A stretch of DNA of 23,591 nt, from the IMG/VR virus record IMGVR_UViG_3300038425_000597, positions 1 through 23,591 of that record. One strand, 5' to 3'. The notes under the pieces are model-generated. The model worked only from the letters and a program-made list of their open reading frames with translations, ran no database searches and was not told where the DNA came from. The position numbers were made by a program, and so were the translations under genes. The DNA is from a virus. Positions 3,092 through 23,591 of the stretch are shown one piece after another; positions within the stretch are counted from its first letter, which is position 1, and the number at the start of each line of letters is the position of its first letter.

Positions 3092-4594
3092 CTACTTGCG
3101 TAGTAGTATTCTTTTCTTCTTGCAGAACCCTAATACAGCTAAAGCCGAAACCATGCACAGCGGCAGAAACTCAAACGATGGAAATTCCGCCACTGTCGCG
3201 TAGTTTACATAGAGATAGCTTGAGTTCACGTCGGAACATGACAGCAACGTGTACGCAGTTTCCGACCCGTTAATATACACGTTAATTGGTGCACTAATCA
3301 AAGCTGTTGGGATACATATCCTGCAGAAGCCAACATTGCCTGATGGACTCTGAACGGTTAAATGAATAGTTGAATTGTCGAACGTCAAAGCCGATATCGT
3401 GGAGTTGCTTATTGTCTCGACGTATTCGTTCGGAGTCAGGGTGAAACTTGAAAAGCTGCCCATCAAGGGATAATGGTCTGTGTTATTTACGTTCAAAACA
3501 TAGGGCGTGTCACCAATTCCGTCTGAGCCGCTAATATTCTGATAAGGCCCGCTAGATAAGTCTGTGCCATTATAGTCGCTCCAGTAGTTTCCTCCTGAAG
3601 GATATCCGTTGTCCCAAGTGTTGTAGTTGTTATCAAGAGTGAATGGGGACACGAAAGCATTATGGTAGAAGAAGTTGCTGCTTGAACCACTCAAGGAAAT
3701 GCCTGTGATACTATTATCAAATAAGAGATTGCTAACTGAGGAAGTCAACACTATCCCATGCCACGCGTTCCCTGAAATCAAATTCCCTGTTATGTTGTTC
3801 AGGTTTGAACTGCTTAGCAGAATTCCTGTACCGCCATCTTCAACATCATTGTCGCTTATTAGGTTACTAAAGGTGCTAGAGAGAGAGATGCCGACCGCAT
3901 TTGAAGAAACTTCTTCGTAACCAAATATGCGATTTCCAGAAGCTATATTGCCGTAGCTGTTGCCATATATGTAAGACTTAATTTCAATTCCAATTTCATT
4001 GTTGGACATATTGTTATCTGTGATAGCATTCAACGAAACAGAATAAATCTGTACTGCTTCGTCGTTGTCAATGAAATGGTTTTGAGTTATGGTATTGTTC
4101 GACGATACATAATATGTATTATAGCCATAAAGAAGTACTCCGTCGCCGCAGCCAGATATCGCATTCCCGATAACTGTGATGTTGCGAGGGTCATCGGTTT
4201 CAACGCCTCTATTAAAGTTACTAATTATCGTGTTCTTAACAGTCACATTTTGTATTTTGCCCGCATATATGCCGCAAGAATACATTAAGTGTCCAGTTGG
4301 ATAACCTTGAATCGCGAACCCTGCCCCATCAAGTATGATATTATTTCGATCGATTGTGATCGCATTCGAGCCTGACCACTCTCCTCCCTCGTCCGTGATG
4401 TTCCCAGTCAGTTTATACGTGAAGTTATCAAGACTGGAGATCGGTGCTGCTGGCGGACTTATGCTACCGTCGGCGTTGATCGTTACCTCCATATTATTAT
4501 TCTGTGCATTAACACTGTGAACACATAATGAAAAGGGTAAAATAATCATACAATAAAATAGAAGAAGCGACGGTAATAACCTAAATATTTTCAC
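3092..4594 (-). CDS. Secreted NosD-type right-handed beta-helix surface protein with C-terminal membrane anchor
   Basis: This 500-aa exported protein begins with GTG. Residues 1-30 form a signal peptide (hydrophobic core LLLFYCMIILPF, likely cut after VNA). Residues 75-320 carry parallel beta-helix repeats of the NosD/PbH1 kind, rich in N-x-I and G-I-x-L steps. Residues 327-378 hold the typical closing motif of archaeal NosD-like proteins (WDNGYPSGGNYWSDY, then GSDGIGDTPY and DHYPLM). A beta domain follows (about 385-468), then EFPSF (470-474), a hydrophobic helix and a KKKR tail, resembling the archaeal PEF-CTERM sorting signal. It would sit outside the cell on the membrane or S-layer. It is antisense to the flanking head genes and visibly more A/T rich (17 G/C in 60 at 3961-4020). 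It is probably host-derived cargo. The substrate is unknown. Confidence 0.85.
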   Translation of the reverse strand: MKIFRLLPSLLLFYCMIILPFSLCVHSVNAQNNNMEVTINADGSISPPAAPISSLDNFTYKLTGNITDEGGEWSGSNAITIDRNNIILDGAGFAIQGYPTGHLMYSCGIYAGKIQNVTVKNTIISNFNRGVETDDPRNITVIGNAISGCGDGVLLYGYNTYYVSSNNTITQNHFIDNDEAVQIYSVSLNAITDNNMSNNEIGIEIKSYIYGNSYGNIASGNRIFGYEEVSSNAVGISLSSTFSNLISDNDVEDGGTGILLSSSNLNNITGNLISGNAWHGIVLTSSVSNLLFDNSITGISLSGSSSNFFYHNAFVSPFTLDNNYNTWDNGYPSGGNYWSDYNGTDLSSGPYQNISGSDGIGDTPYVLNVNNTDHYPLMGSFSSFTLTPNEYVETISNSTISALTFDNSTIHLTVQSPSGNVGFCRICIPTALISAPINVYINGSETAYTLLSCSDVNSSYLYVNYATVAEFPSFEFLPLCMVSALAVLGFCKKKRILLRK

Positions 4595-5210: not shown

Positions 5211-5492
5211 ATGCGAAAGTTGAGTGACCTATTGCCAAAGATGCCGTGTCGTACGCTCTGCGGGCATCCTCTTCAGCGTTACCATTGGAGCTGCATGTAC
5301 TGTCGTGTCCGGCGGTTTTTTTACGGAAAGATGGACCCGAAGATATACCATTACAACAGTTTAATGCGTCTAGTAGTGCCTGCTGACCAGACGACTTATG
5401 TTCTTTTCATCGATGATAGGCGCAGAAACGCCAAAGTCAAATCAATTCTGCTTAAGGCTTGTCTTGAGTTGGCTGAGTGGCTGGCGAACTAG
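5211..5492 (+). CDS. Small protein with N-terminal zinc-finger-like cluster
   Basis: This 93-aa protein has C13, C17, H19, H25, C28 and C31 in its first third (PCRTLCGH, then HWSCMYC), consistent with one zinc site. A basic RVRR stretch and a mixed alpha/beta remainder (YVLFIDDRRRNAKV) follow. The frame extends back to a TTG at 5199, but ATG at 5211 is the more natural start; neither has a ribosome binding site. The stop TAG is directly followed by the ATG of the next gene, in the same frame. It is the first gene of the second plus-strand head segment. Function is unknown; nucleic-acid binding is possible. Confidence 0.6.
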   Translation: MRKLSDLLPKMPCRTLCGHPLQRYHWSCMYCRVRRFFYGKMDPKIYHYNSLMRLVVPADQTTYVLFIDDRRRNAKVKSILLKACLELAEWLAN

Positions 5493-10638: not shown

Positions 10639-11075
10639 CAGACACGGCTCAAATCGTAAGTACGATGCTTCAGGCAAAGTGGGGCCTCTCATCTCCGACT
10701 TCTGGCCAGATTTATTGGGCAACGACGCGGTTTCAGACGATGGACTTTCAGAAGCTGGCTAGTTCTTACGCTATAGCCTGCTATAACCCTGGCGGCCCAG
10801 TTGCGTCCGAAGCATTGGCCCGTGAAGTCTGGCAGATGGTTGAAGATGTCGTAATTGACATAGTCGTAAAAGTCGGCTCTGGTACTGTTCAGCAGGCGCT
10901 AGACGCCAGGGAAAACATGCGGAAAGAGGTTTACAGAATCATCCACGCTAACGAGTTTTCATTCTCAGGATGTGTTGATGTTTACCCGATGCGAGAGCAT
11001 ACGAAAGCTGAAAGTCCAGACCTCGCTCGCCTCGCAATTCAAGTCAAGTGCAGGAGCTTTAACGTCTCAAGTTAA
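10635..11075 (+). CDS. Tail terminator / head completion-like protein
   Basis: This 146-aa protein starts at a GTG that overlaps the previous stop. A central long helix (SEALAREVWQMVEDVVIDIVVK), a second helix (RENMRKEVYRIIHAN), and a last strand after MREHTKAESPDLARL (AIQVKCRSF) fit the alpha/beta layout of tail-completion proteins. Its place between the adaptor and the HK97 gp10-like gene supports a head-tail joining role. Which ring it forms cannot be told from sequence alone. Confidence 0.55.
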   Translation: MTDTAQIVSTMLQAKWGLSSPTSGQIYWATTRFQTMDFQKLASSYAIACYNPGGPVASEALAREVWQMVEDVVIDIVVKVGSGTVQQALDARENMRKEVYRIIHANEFSFSGCVDVYPMREHTKAESPDLARLAIQVKCRSFNVSS

Positions 11076-11085
11076 GGTGGCTTCT

Positions 11086-11469
11086 GTGAGCGCACGTATA
11101 GAGTGCACAGTTGCTTATGCTGACCAGCTCTCAGCTGCTCTGCAGTCAGCCTTCCCAGGGGCGCTTGATAGAAACATTATGGCAGCCATTGAAGCTGTCG
11201 TGAACAGAATCTTAGACACTGCTAGGATCCTGGTCCCAGTTCGTACTGGCTTTCTTCTCAGCACAATCGGCGCTGAAGCCCTCGCAAGGTGGGCTTTCAC
11301 GATTTATGCCCGTGCTCCTTACGCCGGATATGTCGAGTGGGGCACGTTCAGAATGCATGCGCGGCTATATATGACCCGTGCGATCGGGCAGCATCAAGGT
11401 GAGCTGCCGCAGGAGCTGGCTAACGCCGTCATACAATCAGCCCAGGAGAGTGGCATAGTACTTGGATAA
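11086..11469 (+). CDS. HK97 gp10-like tail completion protein
   Basis: This 127-aa protein has the family hallmarks: a helix of AIEAVVNRILDTARILVPVRTG (35-55, with the usual PVRTG-x-L turn), then PYAGYVEWGT (79-88) and ARLYMTRAI (92-100). Members sit at the head-tail interface and finish the tail top. The frame is open back to 10972, but GTG at 11086 with AAGGTGG (11074-11080) six bases before it is the true start; the upstream part overlaps the previous gene. The 3' end overlaps the next start by eight bases. Confidence 0.8.
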   Translation: MSARIECTVAYADQLSAALQSAFPGALDRNIMAAIEAVVNRILDTARILVPVRTGFLLSTIGAEALARWAFTIYARAPYAGYVEWGTFRMHARLYMTRAIGQHQGELPQELANAVIQSAQESGIVLG

Positions 11470-11983
11470 GTGGGCGAAGCTGCATTGGAGAAAGAACTTT
11501 GTTAACTTCAGTGTTCGTGTTCTCAACTACTTAATGCCAGAAATGAAGCCTACTTATCCGCAGACAGTGATAGTTCAAAAAGTGTTTGACCAGCTTGACG
11601 AGGCCTATGAGACAGAAGTCCGTGCTGGGCGCTTCGATGATATGCCATATCAAACTCTGGATGGCTTGAAAGATAGGAACTTTCAACGGCTCTTGCAACT
11701 CTCTCGGAAACTGCTTGTCTACTTCAGCGAAGACGATCGCTACTACAGACAGTGGCTCGGCCTTGCTATGCTGCTTGTCAGAAAAGAACTTGGTCACCGA
11801 CTTGAAACATTAAGCTTTGAAGAATGTAGGTGGCTTGTCTTTTCCCAGTGGCATTTTGATTTGAGAGGTGCCGTTTCGGAGGAGTACTTTAACGCTCATA
11901 GGGAAGATTTCCTGAACATGGTTCTCGCGAACTTCCTTATGAATCTCATAAAAAAAGACTTAACAGAGGTGAAAAAAGCATGA
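11462..11983 (+). CDS. Hypothetical helical protein before the tail tube gene
   Basis: This 173-aa protein is rich in Leu, Arg, Tyr and Trp and probably all helical (RNFQRLLQLSRKLLVYFSE, YYRQWLGLAMLLVRKEL, FLNMVLANFLMNLIKKDL). The only start near the beginning is TTG at 11462, because an in-frame TAG lies at 11456. AGGAG is 13 bases away, so initiation probably depends on coupling with the preceding gene. It overlaps the tube gene by four bases. Function is unknown; the position suggests tail or neck assembly. Confidence 0.6.
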   Translation: MDKWAKLHWRKNFVNFSVRVLNYLMPEMKPTYPQTVIVQKVFDQLDEAYETEVRAGRFDDMPYQTLDGLKDRNFQRLLQLSRKLLVYFSEDDRYYRQWLGLAMLLVRKELGHRLETLSFEECRWLVFSQWHFDLRGAVSEEYFNAHREDFLNMVLANFLMNLIKKDLTEVKKA

Positions 11984-12381
11984 GCACTCCATTGATAGGT
12001 CGTAATGCCGTTGTCCAGTATGTTTCTGGCGGTACGGCGACAACCATCGGCTACGCTCAAGGAGTCACAGAAGACGTTACAGCAGACCTCATAAAAGAGT
12101 TCCAGCTTAACAGTGACCACCCAGCGCTTCTAGCAGCAGGTAACAAAAGCTTCAAAATCGCAGTTGACCGAATGTACATAGACACTTTCTTCGCCCAAGT
12201 TATGTACGGAAACCAAGTTGTGGACTTCGTCATTGGTCCAGCAGGTACAAGCGTCGGCTTGCCAAAGATAACCATAAAGAACGTCGTCTTGATAGCTCAT
12301 AACATCAAAGTTGACCAGAAAGGCATAGTAGGCCAGAAGATAACAGGCGAAGGAAACGACCGAATAGTAAGCACTTTCTAA
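11980..12381 (+). CDS. Major tail (tube) protein
   Basis: This 133-aa, beta-rich protein has the tail-tube order: an N-terminal strand (PLIGRNAVVQYVSGG), an ATTIGYAQGVTEDV loop, a helix with DHPALLAAGNKSF, and paired strands (PKITIKNVVLIAHNIKVDQKG, IVGQKITGEGNDRIVSTF). The position just before the chaperone frameshift pair and tape measure is the classic one for this gene in siphoviruses. AGAGGTGAAAAAAGC leads to the ATG. A T-rich terminator follows. Confidence 0.8.
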   Translation: MSTPLIGRNAVVQYVSGGTATTIGYAQGVTEDVTADLIKEFQLNSDHPALLAAGNKSFKIAVDRMYIDTFFAQVMYGNQVVDFVIGPAGTSVGLPKITIKNVVLIAHNIKVDQKGIVGQKITGEGNDRIVSTF

Positions 12382-12455: not shown

Positions 12456-12920
12456 ATGAGTCAAAATGAGAAGATAGACTGGGGAAAAGCCACAGAGATG
12501 GAAGAAGCTCTTAATGCTTCAGAAGCTGAGAGGCTTGCAAGAGTAAGAATCTTTGACCCGAAAGAGATCGTGCGGAAGGCTAAGGAAGTCAGGGAAATCG
12601 TTGATGAGGACTTGGGAACGATTCGCTATGTGCTGCTGAGCTACGATGAGCTTAACGAGATAATCGAGAAGCATAAAGACAACAGAGACAGAAGCATCCA
12701 ACTACTCTTTAAGCAGCTTAGCCCGGCGAATGAAGGCTTGAAAGTCGAGGACATTCGCAAGATGCCGTATGAAGTTGTTGTGCGGCTACTGATGAAGCTT
12801 CAGACTGAGGGAAGTTTTTTTCAGCGCCCTCAGAAGCCGTCGCAGAATGGGTCGCAAACGACGGAAGAGCGCAGACCATCGGATTCATCGCGCATGAGTA
12901 CGGTTACACACTTCAAATGA
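12456..12920 (+). CDS. Tail assembly chaperone G (zero-frame product)
   Basis: This 154-aa, acidic, helical protein lies between tube and tape measure. GGAGGT (12440-12445) precedes the ATG by ten bases. Helices with RARVRIFDPKEIVRKAKEVREIV and YDELNEIIEKH are followed by a helical block ending at MPYEVVVRLLMKLQTEGSFF. The last 32 codons after the seven-T run look unlike the rest, being rich in Ser, Arg and Gln, as expected for a frame that is mostly read past. Chaperone G coats the tape measure while the tube assembles. The identification follows position and the frameshift arrangement. Confidence 0.8.
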   Translation: MSQNEKIDWGKATEMEEALNASEAERLARVRIFDPKEIVRKAKEVREIVDEDLGTIRYVLLSYDELNEIIEKHKDNRDRSIQLLFKQLSPANEGLKVEDIRKMPYEVVVRLLMKLQTEGSFFQRPQKPSQNGSQTTEERRPSDSSRMSTVTHFK

Positions 12921-12997
12921 TCGGCGAGCTGACTCCTTTCCAAATCCAATTTTTGAAAGAATGGGCAAAGTGGTACTATAACCAGCAGAAAGGTTAG
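12456..12997 (+). CDS. Tail assembly chaperone GT made by -1 programmed frameshift
   Basis: At 12815-12821 seven T lie as T TTT TTT in the zero frame, an ideal X-XXY-YYZ slip site. Slipping by -1 continues at TCA (12821) for 58 codons to TAG at 12995-12997, seven bases before the tape-measure ATG. The extension reads as sound protein (SEAVAEWVAND, HEYGYTLQMIGEL, TPFQIQFLKEWAKW). The product is 180 aa. A possible 6-bp stem (CCGTCG 12837-12842 with CGACGG 12859-12864) begins 15 bases downstream. The layout is that of lambda G/GT. Confidence 0.85.
12815..12864 (+). promoter_or_regulatory. Programmed -1 frameshift signal
   Basis: A slippery run of seven T (12815-12821), in the correct phase, is followed by a possible hairpin (12837-12864). 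The spacer of 15 bases is longer than the usual five to nine, so the stem's role is uncertain. The slip site itself is canonical. Confidence 0.8.
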
Positions 12998-13003
12998 AGC
13001 TAG

Positions 13004-15355
13004 ATGAGCAGCGAAGATGTTGAGATTCATCTGATAGCCTACGATGAGGCTTCAGACGTTATTCAGAGCATTGGCTCTAACCTTTCCACGACCTTTACTG
13101 ATGTTGAAGGGAACACACAAGGCCTTGTAACGACTACTGATAACGCGACTAACCAGATCGTCTATGACTATAGTCAGGTCAGCGATGCTGGGCAGCAGCT
13201 TCAGAATAGTCAAGCAGACCTTCAGATGAGCACAAGCGACACTGTAATGAGTATGAACAACTTGGCGCTCGGCGGCGCTGCCCTAGCTATGAGCTTCATG
13301 AATGTTGAGAATCGCCAAGTCGCAGTGGACCGCGCGAACTTAATGGTAGAGCGTGGCTTAGCAACCTTGCAGAAGGCTCAAGACTCATACAATGTCGCTG
13401 TTGAAAAGTACGGTGCTGATAGCTCCCAAGCTCAAGCTGCTGCTGACAAACTCAGCATCGCCCAGGATGCATATAACGTCGCTGTTGAAAGGGCAGATAT
13501 GTCTCAGAGAAACCTCAGCATGAGCATGACGATGGCTGCGCTGACTGTTATTCCCAGCCTCGTCTCCATGATCACGATTGTTTCAAAATCGACAGAGATT
13601 TGGGAAGGTATACAGGCAGCACTGAATACCGTAATGGATGTTAACCCAATCTTTCTTGTCATAACTGCTATCGGCGCTCTCGTCGCTGCTCTTGCTCTTA
13701 TTCCTGGCGCTTGGGATGCGGTGGTCAACGCGTTTCGTGCAGCTGGGAACTTCATCATCACGGTTGCGAATGACATAGGTAATGCTTGGAACGGCTTCGT
13801 CGGCCTTTTCACGGGAGGGAACAAGCAAGCGACAGACTCAGTTAACGGATTAACCGCTGCTGTCCAAGACGAAGGGGACAAACTCATTTCAGCATCGCAG
13901 AACATCAAGGATTTTCAAACTCAACTAGACGCGGCAAATGCATCAGTGTGGGGTGTTGATGAGGTCTTATGGAGAAATACGACAACATTAGGCGAGTATC
14001 AGGCAAAAGCAGCAGACGCTAGTGATGAAGTTAAAGTTCTTGACGATCAAATAGCTTCTCTGACTGATTCTTACAAGAAGAGCAAGGACGAACTTGACAA
14101 AGATATAGCAGGACTTGAAGCGCAGAAAATCATTCTTGAATCAGTTGGAGGAAACACGAAAGAAGTTCAAGGTGCTATCGAGAAACTCAACGCGAAAGAA
14201 GCTGATATGAAGAAGCAACTTGATGATACTACAACATCTCTTGGAAGCCAGAAAGCTGCTGTTGAAGCAGCACAGAAAGCAGCGCAAGACGACGCGACAT
14301 TTATAGAGAACTTGACGACAGAATACGACGAGATGAAGGCTGCTGTTGACACGAATCTCGGCGCTGTCAAAGCGGCTTTTGACGATGCTTTCAACGCTGG
14401 AGATTTTAACAAGGCGCTTGGAATCGTTCAAGACTTCGCGAACAAGTACGGTCTAAGCTTATCTGACGCTGAGAAAACTATTGATGCCTTCAAGGCTGCC
14501 CAGGCTGCTGTTCCGCAGACGATTGAAGAGCAGCTTATCGGAAAAGCTCAAGCTGACCTTCAGACCTTCCAAAACTGTGCAACCGGGAAGTTCGTAAATC
14601 TCGAAACTGATACGTCCGCCAGCATGGAACAAGTAGTCAGTGACACGAACGACTTGATTAGCAGGGGACTCGTCGGCCAAGCTCAAGACAGTATTCAAAC
14701 TTTCGTGAATTGTGCGACAAGCAAGCATGATACGCTTGTCTCGAACATCGAGTCTGACTTAGCAAAGCTGCGGGCAGCCTACGCGGCCGGTGCTGCAGAT
14801 GTCGCGCCGTACATAAAATCGCTGGAAGAGTTCAAGCTTGCAGCGACATTTGACACATCCGGGGCAACTATTCTTGACGCTATCAAGCTTGCAGGCGAGA
14901 CTGCTGATCAAGTTGCTGCTCAAACAGACGCACCAACGACGCAGATCACAGGTTCTTTCCATGATATCGCCAATGACGCAACCACTACTTTGAGAATGCT
15001 CCAGCATAACATCGTTGGCGGAAGCATCTGGACTGACATGCTCACGCAGATGGAGGATACGACTGCGAAATCTGTCGCCAAGATACAAGCACAGTTCAAG
15101 ACTCTTCAAGCTGAAGGCATTGTCGGAGGAGGCGGGTTCGGTGTTCCTGAAGCTTTGCCTGGTCCTAGCGGAAATGCGCCCAACATCTTTCACATCGGCG
15201 AGCTTGTGCATATTGACGGGAGCGCTGATAAGGCAACAGTGGACTTGGCGACAAGACAAGTGCTAGACAAGCTGAAGAGCATCGTTGTCGAGCCGACAAC
15301 ATCTTTCGCGAGTACAACTCAGAAAAGAATCAGACAAGGGGCCGTGACGTACTAA
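13004..15355 (+). CDS. Tail tape measure protein
   Basis: This 783-aa protein sets the tail length; by the usual 0.15 nm per residue the tail would be about 117 nm, a siphovirus-type tail. Sequence features include long coiled-coil helices with heptads and two hydrophobic segments (177-194 and 215-240: IFLVITAIGALVAALALIPG). A further coiled coil follows (about 320-420), then an Ala-rich helical part and a short beta end. Internal repeats are seen: LQKAQDSYNVAVEK (122-135) and LSIAQDAYNVAVER (150-163), and IGKAQADLQTFQNCATGK (512-529) and VGQAQDSIQTFVNCATSK (557-574). The ATG is seven bases after the GT stop. The TAA overlaps the next ATG (TAATG). Confidence 0.9.
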   Translation: MSSEDVEIHLIAYDEASDVIQSIGSNLSTTFTDVEGNTQGLVTTTDNATNQIVYDYSQVSDAGQQLQNSQADLQMSTSDTVMSMNNLALGGAALAMSFMNVENRQVAVDRANLMVERGLATLQKAQDSYNVAVEKYGADSSQAQAAADKLSIAQDAYNVAVERADMSQRNLSMSMTMAALTVIPSLVSMITIVSKSTEIWEGIQAALNTVMDVNPIFLVITAIGALVAALALIPGAWDAVVNAFRAAGNFIITVANDIGNAWNGFVGLFTGGNKQATDSVNGLTAAVQDEGDKLISASQNIKDFQTQLDAANASVWGVDEVLWRNTTTLGEYQAKAADASDEVKVLDDQIASLTDSYKKSKDELDKDIAGLEAQKIILESVGGNTKEVQGAIEKLNAKEADMKKQLDDTTTSLGSQKAAVEAAQKAAQDDATFIENLTTEYDEMKAAVDTNLGAVKAAFDDAFNAGDFNKALGIVQDFANKYGLSLSDAEKTIDAFKAAQAAVPQTIEEQLIGKAQADLQTFQNCATGKFVNLETDTSASMEQVVSDTNDLISRGLVGQAQDSIQTFVNCATSKHDTLVSNIESDLAKLRAAYAAGAADVAPYIKSLEEFKLAATFDTSGATILDAIKLAGETADQVAAQTDAPTTQITGSFHDIANDATTTLRMLQHNIVGGSIWTDMLTQMEDTTAKSVAKIQAQFKTLQAEGIVGGGGFGVPEALPGPSGNAPNIFHIGELVHIDGSADKATVDLATRQVLDKLKSIVVEPTTSFASTTQKRIRQGAVTY

Positions 15356-19322: not shown

Positions 19323-19368
19323 CGTCCAATCTCTCCTTCAACATTTAACTTTGGAGCTAGTGAATACC

Positions 19369-20814
19369 ATGCGAAGACACGAGTTCTTCCACATCAGAAA
19401 GGTCCGCAGGACCTACGACCGGGCCCGGAACATGTTTTCCTTCAACATTTCGTACAGCACAGCGGTAGCCTTGACGCCTAGAACCTCGGCTGTCGCTGAG
19501 GCGTTTGGACTCGGCGTTGACGAGGAGCACATGTTCACCGTCTTGGATGCCGAGTTGAAAATAAACCCCGCAGACATCGTGTACATAACCGGCGACTCTG
19601 GCAGCGGAAAAAGCGTCCTGTTACGCGCCATCAAGAAGGACCTCGGACACATTGCAGTCGACGTCGCAGATATCCAGGTTCCTCTGGATAAACCGCTGAT
19701 CGAGACAGTTGGCAAGACGGTTGAAGAGGGTCTGGAGCTGCTGGCTAAGGTGGGCCTGGGCGACGCTTTCCTTTTTCTTCGATCCTACGACCAGCTCAGC
19801 GACGGGCAGAAGTACAGGTATCGTCTGGCCAAGCTTGTTGAAAGCGACAAGCAGTGGTGGATCCTCGACGAGTTTGCAGCTACATTAGATCGTGACACTG
19901 CAAAGATCGTTGCTTTCAACCTTCAGAAGCTTGCACGCCAACAGGGCAAAGCAGTTTTAGCAGCGACAACACACATGGACCTGTTTGAAGACTTGCATCC
20001 CAGCGTTCACGTTCACAAAAGGTTTGGCAAAGAGATCACCATAAAATATTTCCCGAATGAGCCTGCCAAAGAGTGCAGTTTAGTCAAGGAGATGCGTGTT
20101 GAAGAGGGTTCCACTGAAGATTGGCGGGCCTTGGCAAGTTTTCATTACAGAAGTCACAGAATAAGCGCGCCGCGCAAGATTTTCTGCTTGAAGCGTGGCG
20201 ATGAGCTCTGCGGGGTGATCGTGTACTGTTATCCGCCGTCTGCAAGCTTTGGGCGAAGGCTTGTACTTCCGAGAATGAGCATGCGGGAGCTGAATGAGAA
20301 GCTCAGCGTCATCAGTAGGGTCGTTGTTCACCCCAAGTTTAGAACGGTAGGCTTAGGCGTTAAGCTTGTAAGCGAGACGTTAGCCCTTGCTGGAACAGAC
20401 TACGTTGAAATGTCAGCTGTCATGGCAAAGTACAACCCGTTTGCGGAAAAGACTGGAATGAAGAGAATAGCGGAACAGCACCCGCCAAGAGAAGCTGAGA
20501 AGATCATGGATTTTCTCGAGTGCCTCGGGTTCAACAGTCAACTGCTCGGCAGCACAAACTATGTGTCGAAAATGCTTCAAGCACTCAATGAGGAAGGCAT
20601 AGTGAAAATAAGAGAAGCCTTGGCCAAGCAGAGGCATCCACGTTTTCTGAAAAGTTTTTCGAATGATCTTCCCTTTGGCACCAAGGATGCTTATCAGAAG
20701 GAAATAGCAAACGCGAGCCTCCAGAAACTTGCAAGCCTGATCAAGATCTGCGGTTTTCTGATGCAGACGAAGGTCTATCTTTTCTGGCAAAGAGAAAGGC
20801 TCGAGTTCAGTTAG
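19369..20814 (+). CDS. ABC-type ATPase fused to GNAT N-acetyltransferase
   Basis: This soluble 481-aa protein has no membrane domain. The ATPase half has Walker A GDSGSGKS (75-82), signature LSDGQ (143-147), Walker B WWILDE (163-168) with the catalytic Glu, and the switch His in ATTHMD (H202). The C-terminal half (about 250-390) is a GNAT domain: SVISRVVVHPKFRTVGLG (313-330) gives the acetyl-CoA loop, then ALAGTDYVEMSAVM and YNPFAEKTGM. A helical tail follows. Cytosolic ABC-GNAT fusions are known in viral and cellular genomes, but the substrate is not established. Start choice: ATG at 19369, with GGAG 12 bases upstream; GTG at 19360 and TTG at 19351 are alternatives. It may modify nucleic acid, as Mom-type GNAT-fold proteins do, or protein. 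Confidence 0.8.
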   Translation: MRRHEFFHIRKVRRTYDRARNMFSFNISYSTAVALTPRTSAVAEAFGLGVDEEHMFTVLDAELKINPADIVYITGDSGSGKSVLLRAIKKDLGHIAVDVADIQVPLDKPLIETVGKTVEEGLELLAKVGLGDAFLFLRSYDQLSDGQKYRYRLAKLVESDKQWWILDEFAATLDRDTAKIVAFNLQKLARQQGKAVLAATTHMDLFEDLHPSVHVHKRFGKEITIKYFPNEPAKECSLVKEMRVEEGSTEDWRALASFHYRSHRISAPRKIFCLKRGDELCGVIVYCYPPSASFGRRLVLPRMSMRELNEKLSVISRVVVHPKFRTVGLGVKLVSETLALAGTDYVEMSAVMAKYNPFAEKTGMKRIAEQHPPREAEKIMDFLECLGFNSQLLGSTNYVSKMLQALNEEGIVKIREALAKQRHPRFLKSFSNDLPFGTKDAYQKEIANASLQKLASLIKICGFLMQTKVYLFWQRERLEFS

Positions 20815-20846: not shown

Positions 20847-20900
20847 TGTGATGTTACTCCTATACGATCACATAGGCCAACCGACCGTTCAAACGAACGG
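20847..20900. repeat. Short inverted repeats upstream of the first recombinase
   Basis: TGTGAT (20847-20852) pairs with ATCACA (20867-20872). CCGTTC (20885-20890) pairs with GAACGG (20895-20900) over four bases. They lie in the 159-base gap before the recombinase and could be operators or arm-type recombinase sites. Confidence 0.35.
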
Positions 20901-20912
20901 GGGAATTTGGAC

Positions 20913-20940
20913 AAAAGAAGATTGCCTTTTAAGTTTTAAG
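20913..20940 (+). promoter_or_regulatory. Candidate promoter of the recombinase pair
   Basis: AAAAGAAG (20913-20920) could be a BRE. It is followed by two overlapping TATA-like elements, CTTTTAAG (20926-20933) and GTTTTAAG (20933-20940), 34-48 bases before the ATG at 20974. This leaves room for a short leader containing the GGAGGT ribosome binding site. Confidence 0.4.
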
Positions 20941-20973
20941 ATCAAAAACCTAGAGAAAAGGAGGTTTGATAAG

Positions 20974-22329
20974 ATGAAATACAAAACTCTAGTCATAGAA
21001 AAGAGCATTCGAGGCAAGATACTGAAGAAACCGCTGACGATAAAAGTCCCGGAGCAACAAAATGCGGCAGAAAAGAAACTTCTAGACTATGTCTTAGAGT
21101 CGTTGAACCAAAGATCCTGCCTAATACCATTTACTCTCGAAAACTTCTCAACAAGGAATCTTGCCAGATATCTACTATTCAGCAGAACTGGGAGTCAGAA
21201 CAGTCTTTACGGATACGCCGAAAGCGTCTATCATTTCAGCAAATGGATTGGCGCCCAGCCTGATCAACTTCTAAATAAATGCCAGAAAAGAAATGGAGAT
21301 ACAAACCCAAAGGGAATTGCCAGAATGACGCGTGCTCTTGATGAGTACGTAGATTTCTTGCAAGCAAACAACTTTTCACCTAACTCTATAAGGAGCTACC
21401 TGAAAGGCGTGATAGCCCTGTTTAATGTCAATTGCGTAGGACTTAGAATGGCCTACGGCCTGAGCACTTGGAATGTATACGAAGGTCGAGCTCCCTCGCG
21501 GGAAGAAATCCAAAAAATCCTAGACTTAGCAGACCTTCGTGATAGAGTCATAATCACAATACTCGCTGTCAGCGGTCTGCGTGTGGGTACACTCCTGAAA
21601 CTGCAATATCAACATGTAAAACACGACATCGAACGAGACATCGTCCCAATTCATGTGCATGTCGAGGCGGAACTAACAAAGAACAAACGTCGTAGTTATG
21701 ACACTTTTCTGAATGATGAGGCATCAGATTGTCTCAGGTCTTATATTGAGGCTAGAATAAGAGGCACACAAAAGATCCCACGAGAAGAACTACACGACGA
21801 ATCACCTTTGATCAGGGCCAAACTTTGCAAACAAGTTAAGACGGTAACTGTTGGGAGCGTCCAAAGTGTCATTCACGACCTCTATGTCAAAGCTGGCTTA
21901 TTGGAAAATAACTCTTTGCGGAGAAGATATGAATTGAGAACTCACAGCTTTAGGAAGTTTTTCCGGACCCAAATGGCCTCACTTGACGTTGATCGCGATT
22001 GCATCGATTACATGATGGGTCGCCGCGCGAAAGATCGCTACCATGATATTGGAATGAAAGGCGTCGAATACCTGCGCGGCGTCTACTTGAATTCCAGAAT
22101 AAGCATACGAGCGAAAGTCAAGATGAACAAGATCGATGCTTTGAAAGAGATAGTCCAAGCATGGGGTCTGAACCCTGAGAAAATCCTGACCAATGAAGCA
22201 TTGGCGCAGCTTACTTCAACTACCGAAAAGAAGCCGGCCACTGACAGAGATCTGCTCTTCTGGTTAAAGCCTTTGCAGAATCATCAATCGAACGGCTTTT
22301 CCCCAGAATCAAGTGGTGCACACAAATGA
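20974..22329 (+). CDS. Tyrosine recombinase A (integrase family, altered active site)
   Basis: This 451-aa protein has an N-terminal SAM-like core-binding domain (about 60-165) and a C-terminal catalytic domain. Active residues are R203 (SGLRVG), K236 (LTKNKR), H324 and R327 (THSFRKF), and Y371 (RGVYLNS). The histidine expected after MMG is replaced: the sequence reads MMGRRAKDRYHD, with R350 where the paralogue has H348. The start is ATG 20974 with GGAGGT (20960-20965); the frame opens earlier at 20848, but the paralogue aligns from 20974. About 30 extra C-terminal residues are absent from the paralogue. It overlaps the next gene by four bases. Altered chemistry or a partner role is possible. 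Confidence 0.85.
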   Translation: MKYKTLVIEKSIRGKILKKPLTIKVPEQQNAAEKKLLDYVLESLNQRSCLIPFTLENFSTRNLARYLLFSRTGSQNSLYGYAESVYHFSKWIGAQPDQLLNKCQKRNGDTNPKGIARMTRALDEYVDFLQANNFSPNSIRSYLKGVIALFNVNCVGLRMAYGLSTWNVYEGRAPSREEIQKILDLADLRDRVIITILAVSGLRVGTLLKLQYQHVKHDIERDIVPIHVHVEAELTKNKRRSYDTFLNDEASDCLRSYIEARIRGTQKIPREELHDESPLIRAKLCKQVKTVTVGSVQSVIHDLYVKAGLLENNSLRRRYELRTHSFRKFFRTQMASLDVDRDCIDYMMGRRAKDRYHDIGMKGVEYLRGVYLNSRISIRAKVKMNKIDALKEIVQAWGLNPEKILTNEALAQLTSTTEKKPATDRDLLFWLKPLQNHQSNGFSPESSGAHK

Positions 22330-23591
22330 AATCCCTGACCGTGACAAGAAGCCCGAATAATTACACACTGAAACAACCCTTGACACTTCATATTCCAGAG
22401 CCAGAAACTGTAGCCGAGGAAAAACTGCAACAATACATCATAAACACGTTCGTCGTAAGGCAGCCCTCGTTGGCGCGATTCACTTTCGAAAACTCCACCA
22501 CCATGGAGCTCACGAAACATCTGCTACGTCACCGAACAGGCAGTACAAGCACGCTTTACAATAACGTTTACGCTGTATATCGTTTCTGCACATGGCTGCA
22601 GAGTGAGCCCGACCAGCTTGTGAATCGATGCAAAGGAAAGGATGAAGTTCCGATACCCAAGGCCGTCATTCAAATGGGGCGCCTCCTTGCAGACTTTGCC
22701 GATAATCTTCAAGAAGAAAATGGCTTGGCCCCAGCCACGGTGTACTGCATGGTAAAGTGCATCCAATTCTTCTTCCAGCTTAACGGTGTCAAATTTAGAA
22801 TGCCCTACCGAAGATCGCGGTGGGGCATTTACGAAGAACGCGCACCAACGCCGGAAGAACTCCAAAAGATCATAAGCGTAGCTGATGCCCGCGGCAAGGT
22901 CATAGTCGCCCTGATGGCGGTCGCTGGTTTTCGAAACGGAACCCTGGTTCAGCTCAAATATCGCCACGTTAGGCAAGACATGGAAAAGGGAAGAACCTCC
23001 ATTCATGTTCATGTAGAAGCCGCGATAACAAAAGGAAAGCGTCATGATTACGACACCTTTCTGAACAAGGAAGCTTCAGATTATCTCAAAGCCTACTTAG
23101 ACGCTCGAAGAAACGGGACAAAACGGAGACAGCCAGAATGCCTTCACGATGAATCGCCTCTGATCAGCTACTATCGCCAGATTAGACCGTTAACTCCGCC
23201 GCGCATTGGAGATATCGTGAACGCGCTCTACGTGAAGGCTGGTCTATTAACTAAGAACCCTAGAATCAGGAGATATGACCTGAGGGCACACAGCCTCCGC
23301 AAATTCTTCCTAACTCAGATGGTTTCCTTAGGCGTAGAACGCGACTACATTGAGTACATGATGGGCCACACCTTAAGCATATACCACGATGTCAAAATGA
23401 AAGGAGTCGATTTTCTGCGCGCAGTCTATCTAGCATCAGGCCTTAGCATACAACCAAGAACCAAAGCCAGCAAAATGATCGACCTAATAGAAATCATCAA
23501 TTCATGGGGACTAAATCCAGAAGAGTTCCTAACACAAGAAGCATTAGATCAGTTCTACGAAGCTCGCGCGCGGTCGTTCACACATAATTAA
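22326..23591 (+). CDS. Tyrosine recombinase B (integrase family, complete active site)
   Basis: This 421-aa protein is collinear with recombinase A and clearly its paralogue: 19 of 25 residues match over 226-250 in both. It has R203 (AGFRNG), K236, H322, R325, H348 (MMGHTL) and Y368 (RAVYLAS), so the full set is present. ATG at 22326 overlaps the stop of A (ATGA), so the pair is translated together. The gene ends at the last base of the window with a TAA and is intact. It probably catalyses integration or excision of the element. No att core or tRNA is visible within the window. Confidence 0.88.
   Translation: MKSLTVTRSPNNYTLKQPLTLHIPEPETVAEEKLQQYIINTFVVRQPSLARFTFENSTTMELTKHLLRHRTGSTSTLYNNVYAVYRFCTWLQSEPDQLVNRCKGKDEVPIPKAVIQMGRLLADFADNLQEENGLAPATVYCMVKCIQFFFQLNGVKFRMPYRRSRWGIYEERAPTPEELQKIISVADARGKVIVALMAVAGFRNGTLVQLKYRHVRQDMEKGRTSIHVHVEAAITKGKRHDYDTFLNKEASDYLKAYLDARRNGTKRRQPECLHDESPLISYYRQIRPLTPPRIGDIVNALYVKAGLLTKNPRIRRYDLRAHSLRKFFLTQMVSLGVERDYIEYMMGHTLSIYHDVKMKGVDFLRAVYLASGLSIQPRTKASKMIDLIEIINSWGLNPEEFLTQEALDQFYEARARSFTHN

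Follow-up and report, generated by a model that had tools for sequence, protein, structure and literature searches.

Does a run of seven T's between two genes of a viral tail module allow one start codon to yield two tail-assembly proteins? The question arises in an IMG/VR record of 23,591 bases, analysed here at its full length and referred to as the window, which carries a head-tail module in which the terminase, portal, capsid, neck and tape measure proteins were named by PHROG or Pfam. Just before the tape measure gene, a zero-frame ORF overlaps a second ORF in the -1 frame, and the region is laid out as follows:

11035–11469, plus strand: neck or tail completion protein (PHROG phrog_5, E = 4e-14).
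11980–12381, plus strand: putative major tail (tube) protein, named by position; a conserved neighbour in the relatives.
12456–12920, plus strand: G-like gene, zero frame, 154 amino acids; an ORF with its N-terminal part conserved in 38 relatives.
12815–12821, plus strand: slip heptamer T_TTT_TTT, zero-frame codons AGT TTT TTT; in phase; all 38 relatives have T_TTT_TTN at this position.
12821–12997, plus strand: -1 frame extension, the T-like part, 58 amino acids and the stop TAG (12995–12997); no stops across the relatives, predicted compact helical domain.
12822–12920, plus strand: overlap read in both frames, in which the 32-amino-acid zero-frame tail ends; suppressed silent variation.
12837–12864, plus strand: 6-bp inverted repeat, 12837–12842 with 12859–12864; present, not conserved, probably not functional.
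13004–15355, plus strand: tape measure protein, 783 amino acids (PHROG phrog_8462, E = 7e-10).

The zero-frame AGT codon ends with base 12815, and the run is therefore read as T|TTT|TTT, the phase that a preliminary description of this DNA had assigned to it. A -1 slip at this point would resume reading at 12821 and continue for 58 codons to the TAG, giving a fusion of 122 + 58 = 180 amino acids whose residues 1–122 are common to the 154-residue zero-frame protein; the ORF coordinates thus agree with the earlier proposal that the T run joins the two reading frames. Only the spacing needed correction, as the gap between the extension's stop, which ends at 12997, and the tape measure ATG at 13004 is six bases rather than seven. 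We consider it highly probable (about 0.9) that a single start codon gives rise to two tail-assembly proteins through programmed -1 ribosomal frameshifting at U_UUU_UUU, a reading that is drawn from comparison of related sequences. Most ribosomes would read on and produce the G-like protein, and a minority, with tRNA-Phe paired to both UUU codons, would slip back by one base to produce the GT-like fusion. By analogy with phage lambda, the tape measure protein would be bound by many copies of G and a few of GT, with the T part recruiting the tail tube protein.

Seven T's in a single sequence are weak evidence for such a mechanism, since the run has a probability of ~0.12 in the window given the encoded amino acids, and a second TTTTTTT is present at 5316. 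The preliminary description had proposed an alignment of related loci as a check. Scans of IMG/VR with four queries (the N-terminal part, an alignment of the fusion, the capsid protein and the T part) yielded 37 distinct relatives having both ORFs, and in all 37 the second ORF lies in the -1 frame and the junction reads T_TTT_TTN. A 38th and more divergent relative, L088, has an in-phase TTTTTTA and a -1 ORF that extends to the next gene, such that the alignment found the in-phase heptamer and an open, overlapping -1 frame in 38 of 38 relatives, with only the last base varying, by clade. A further contig, L073, holds the start of the gene only, at the contig end. Sixteen of the 37 relatives, together with L088 (17 in total), came from the capsid scan, which selects neither for this gene nor for the slip site. 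The heptamer forms TTTTTTT, TTTTTTG, TTTTTTA and TTTTTTC require five changes on the fusion tree and their first six T's are invariant; in about half of the relatives there are six T's only, with A, C or G as the seventh base. For fixed amino acids, the codon choice at the slip site has a joint probability of ~1e-20 over 14 clusters below 70% identity, and a product of ~2e-13 with one representative for each of 8 clusters below 50% identity, values that are indicative only because the clusters share ancestry. Since the heptamer is conserved in 38 relatives, chance is excluded as its origin and, as far as codon choice can tell, the heptamer is kept beyond what the amino acids demand.

The second frame is also conserved as protein. 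Over the stretch between the slip and the extension's end, the -1 frame of the window and its 37 closest relatives contains no stops in 2159 codons, compared with 126 and 94 stops in 2121 codons in the other two frames over the same region. Among 12 close relatives, pN/pS was 0.20 for the stretch ahead of the slip and 0.18 for the part of the extension past the zero-frame stop, which upholds the earlier impression that the extension reads as protein. In the same 12 relatives, synonymous divergence in the -1 frame, whose third positions are the second positions of the zero frame, drops from 0.66 to 0.31 inside the overlap. Examined codon by codon in the window group, silent variation is absent at the slip codons, stays low up to the zero-frame stop (codon 92) and then returns. 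The overlap is 32 codons long in this group versus 9 in the L108 clade, where the zero-frame tail is correspondingly 9 codons; in that clade codons 61–70 are without silent variation, which is back at codon 71, and the encoded motif is much alike. As the L108 clade is closely related internally, its ten silent-free codons are weaker evidence than the pattern in the window group. Since the boundary of the constraint moves with the zero-frame stop, dual coding fits these data and RNA structure does not; we rejected RNA structure as the source of the low silent variation because the two clades differ in overlap length and in each the constraint ends with the zero-frame ORF. With silent sites constrained over the two-frame overlap in both clades, the short and the long product therefore both appear to be under selection.

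Frameshift sites of the X_XXY_YYZ type are usually, though not universally, accompanied by a stimulator, either a downstream structure or an upstream SD-like sequence. The locus shows the phase of the heptamer, its conservation beyond the amino acids and a selected second frame that lacks a start, but no conserved stimulator of this kind. The 6-bp stem that had been reported 15 bases downstream does exist in the window, where CCGTCG at 12837–12842 can pair with CGACGG at 12859–12864, 15 nt after the slip, but it is not conserved and is probably irrelevant. When folded, the stem region was less stable than its own shuffles, and one of its pairs is lost in 7 of 12 relatives, on which grounds the stem was rejected as a conserved stimulator. 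Its pair counts were higher than in most shuffles, which leaves a small probability of a role in the closest relatives. A search for conserved downstream RNA structure in the relatives found none, and an SD-like stimulator was rejected as the SD-like sequence is inconsistent among them. The missing stimulator is not decisive, since phage P2 also lacks one (PMC3091744).

In viruses whose capsid is related but whose tail module is different, the G/T pair is an unrelated one, and a -1 overlap was found in 25 of its 26 distinct loci. Of these overlaps, 21 have the heptamer A_AAA_AAC and two have A_AAA_AAA, whereas A_AAA_AAT and T_TTT_TTA occur once each. Examples among the loci are:

L032, 6381–6949: sister G/T pair.
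L043, 15706–16286: sister G/T pair.
L069, 6460–6466: T_TTT_TTA heptamer.
L018, 13131–13682: both parts in one ORF, heptamer absent.

Judging from these alignments, the sister slip site has been swapped in L069 and lost in L018. The varied sister heptamers and the L018 fusion thus suggest that this place tolerates different heptamers while the slip works, or else a fusion. A methanogen virus, Methanobacterium virus Drs3 (MH674343), possibly has a +1 (or -2) G/T frameshift. At positions 23635–23790 of this genome (L136), an unannotated +1-frame ORF lies at the end of Drs3_00030 and before a large tape-measure-like gene. Of 974 Drs3 ORFs compared with the T profile it scored best, though with a weak E-value of 0.44, and it is in the expected place; it aligns as GYHLCDRQADLTPLQSYFI against GYTLxxIGxLTPFQIxFL.

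The G part of the window pair is predicted to adopt a beta hairpin with helices (pLDDT 80), and the T part a small compact helical domain (pLDDT 92.7). Neither G nor T had a usable match in Pfam, the PHROGs or the sequences of the PDB, a fold search of the parts against the PDB gave nothing, and no relatives of the T part were detectable among 50,697 phage records; as protein families, G and T thus match nothing annotated in these collections. Among the weak matches of the two parts in a viral fold library, all with E above 0.001, were several annotated tail assembly chaperones and a Drs3 protein. Family searches also gave no match for the product of 11980–12381, and its designation as the tail tube protein is therefore putative. 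The likeness to lambda G/GT in position and design that had been pointed out holds, as the pair lies directly before the tape measure gene and after the putative tail tube gene, and would comprise a short G and a longer GT with a common N-terminal part. Wherever the locus includes it, the next long ORF begins no more than about 20 nt from the stop of the extension, and in the window this is the tape measure gene named by PHROG. From the gene order, this design and the weak fold matches, we infer that the two products are tail assembly chaperones.

Could the two ORFs be expressed in some other way? The tight packing of adjacent operon genes would suit an extension that forms a gene in itself, with translation by re-initiation or from a start of its own, but in 37 of 38 sequences the part of the -1 ORF that precedes the conserved core contains no ATG, GTG or TTG. 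The exception is L114, with a GTG 37 codons before the slip; the window itself has no such codon, in line with the earlier observation that the extension lacks a start near the slip, and we regard a separate gene as very improbable. It is harder still to credit that the overlap reflects a sequencing or assembly error in a gene that is truly in one frame, or a decayed gene whose extension is unexpressed. Homopolymers are prone to indel errors, and both parts form one ORF in L018 of the sister module, but 38 relatives from many metagenomes have the identical arrangement with both frames selected, and errors would leave no silent-site constraint across the overlap. On sequence comparison, this explanation is refuted unless one artefact is common to all of the assemblies. 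Polymerase slippage generally involves runs of about nine or more. Transcriptional slippage, in which RNA polymerase would insert one U too many at the T run and part of the mRNA would then code for the fusion in one frame, would nonetheless suit the seven T's of the window and would yield a fusion identical in sequence to that of the ribosomal slip. Against it, the six T's found in about half of the relatives are short for the polymerase, the strict T_TTT_TTN phase is required by the ribosome and not by the polymerase, and A_AAA_AAC stands at the corresponding place in the sister viruses. With six T's and a strict phase, we consider transcriptional slippage distinctly unlikely. For programmed ribosomal frameshifting, the comparison of sequences establishes that the heptamer is in phase, that it and the -1 frame are conserved, that the extension has no independent start and that the overlap is selected in both frames; that the slip is made by the ribosome and not by the polymerase, and how efficiently, we infer.

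The frameshift might also be real but the host bacterial. Two scans of GTDB genomes found no host genome, the terminase also matches Meiothermus and Thermus phages with E-values close to the best, and counts of archaeal promoter motifs showed no enrichment, although these counts carry little information on the host. On the other side, the best-fitting models for the integrases are those of archaeal XerA and archaeal phage integrase, albeit with scores below the cut-offs. The contig end of L003 is a tRNA-Ser(GCT) adjoining an integrase; when this tRNA was compared with 50,697 phage records, the sole match was in an Aeropyrum pernix virus, where it falls at the integrase (E = 2e-3). Haloviruses account for about half of the portal matches, and Halogranum tailed virus 1 gave the best terminase E-value. 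MCM was absent from 16 relatives, and the capsid, integrase and tape measure proteins had no match in the phage collection. Taken together, the integrase, tRNA, portal and terminase affinities make an archaeal host likely and a bacterial one rather unlikely. The preliminary description had singled out a poly-T slip site in an archaeal setting as worth documenting; the slip site is confirmed and the setting is likely, though judged indirectly, and poly-T slippage (in P2) and G/GT frameshifting in archaeal viruses are each already on record.

The slip heptamer of phage lambda is G/A-rich. The -1 frameshift that produces its G/GT tail assembly chaperones has been described (PMC5009743), and the window pair has the same gene order and design, but there is no detectable sequence similarity and the window pair has a selected 32-codon zero-frame tail. 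In phage P2, E and E+E' arise from a -1 slip at TTTTTTG with no hairpin predicted downstream (PMC3091744). This heptamer is of the same T_TTT_TTN class as that of the window, the gene order also matches E/E' and a conserved hairpin is likewise lacking in the window, although P2 is a bacterial myovirus whose proteins are 91 and 142 amino acids long. Predicted -1 frameshifts in the tail chaperones of HVTV-1, HCTV-1, -2 and -5 and Hardycor1 (PMC5009743, PMC7911831) use GGGAAAC, AAAAAAC, GGGAAAG (HCTV) and GGGAAAT (Hardycor1) as opposed to poly-T, and the proteins are not recognisably related to those of the window. There are thus precedents for a chaperone slip at T_TTT_TTN, in P2, and for G/GT frameshifts in archaeal viruses, in the haloarchaeal group. 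A -1 frameshift has been studied experimentally in an archaeal cellular gene, the fucA1 alpha-L-fucosidase of Saccharolobus solfataricus (PMC8211752), which encodes a cellular enzyme and has an A-rich slip site conserved in close strains only, whereas the site in the window is viral and poly-T. By 2021 only one such cellular case had been reported, the viral cases being haloarchaeal predictions (PMC8211752, PMC5009743), and a recent study of Bathyarchaeia viruses makes no mention of frameshifting (PMC10848311).

The tRNA-Phe of many archaea is modified with wyosine derivatives, and these reportedly prevent -1 frameshifting, whereas Haloferax volcanii has only m1G (PMC7761594). If wyosine on tRNA-Phe does prevent the -1 slip, then a site of this kind would be unexpected, or would be a sensor of tRNA modification. 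As a tentative proposal, a widespread, uncharacterised group of archaeal head-tailed viruses might rely on a -1 slip at U_UUU_UUN without a structural stimulator, with host tRNA-Phe and tRNA-Leu mainly setting the efficiency, the zero-frame tail under selection, and A_AAA_AAC and T_TTT_TTA swappable in the sister viruses. The comparative set of 39 sequences (the window and its relatives), which has natural variation in the last slip base and comes from probably non-halophilic viruses, would allow a clean test of slippage by the archaeal ribosome at U_UUU_UUN and of the effect of wyosine on tRNA-Phe. Standard annotation of such viruses will miss the T domain.

Runs of T such as that at 12815–12821 can serve as transcription terminators in archaea, and the operon would have to be read through this terminator-like run into the tape measure gene. 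Elsewhere in the window, 20848–22329 and 22326–23591 encode tandem, related tyrosine recombinases that overlap by 4 bases, and similar integrase pairs are present in relatives. A tRNA-Ser(GCT) at 3–91 of L118 (contig IMGVR_UViG_3300032069_000027), at the contig end and beside an integrase, is likely the attachment site of an integrated virus. Positions 19351–20814 encode a 487-amino-acid protein in which an ABC-type ATPase part precedes a GNAT acetyltransferase-like part, and an ABC ATPase gene is also present in three of the large relatives. Finally, a NosD-like beta-helix protein with a signal-like start and a C-terminal hydrophobic stretch is encoded at 3092–4594 on the minus strand; the gene lies between the portal and capsid genes, on the strand opposite to theirs and in a stretch of lower G+C, and is probably a cargo gene.
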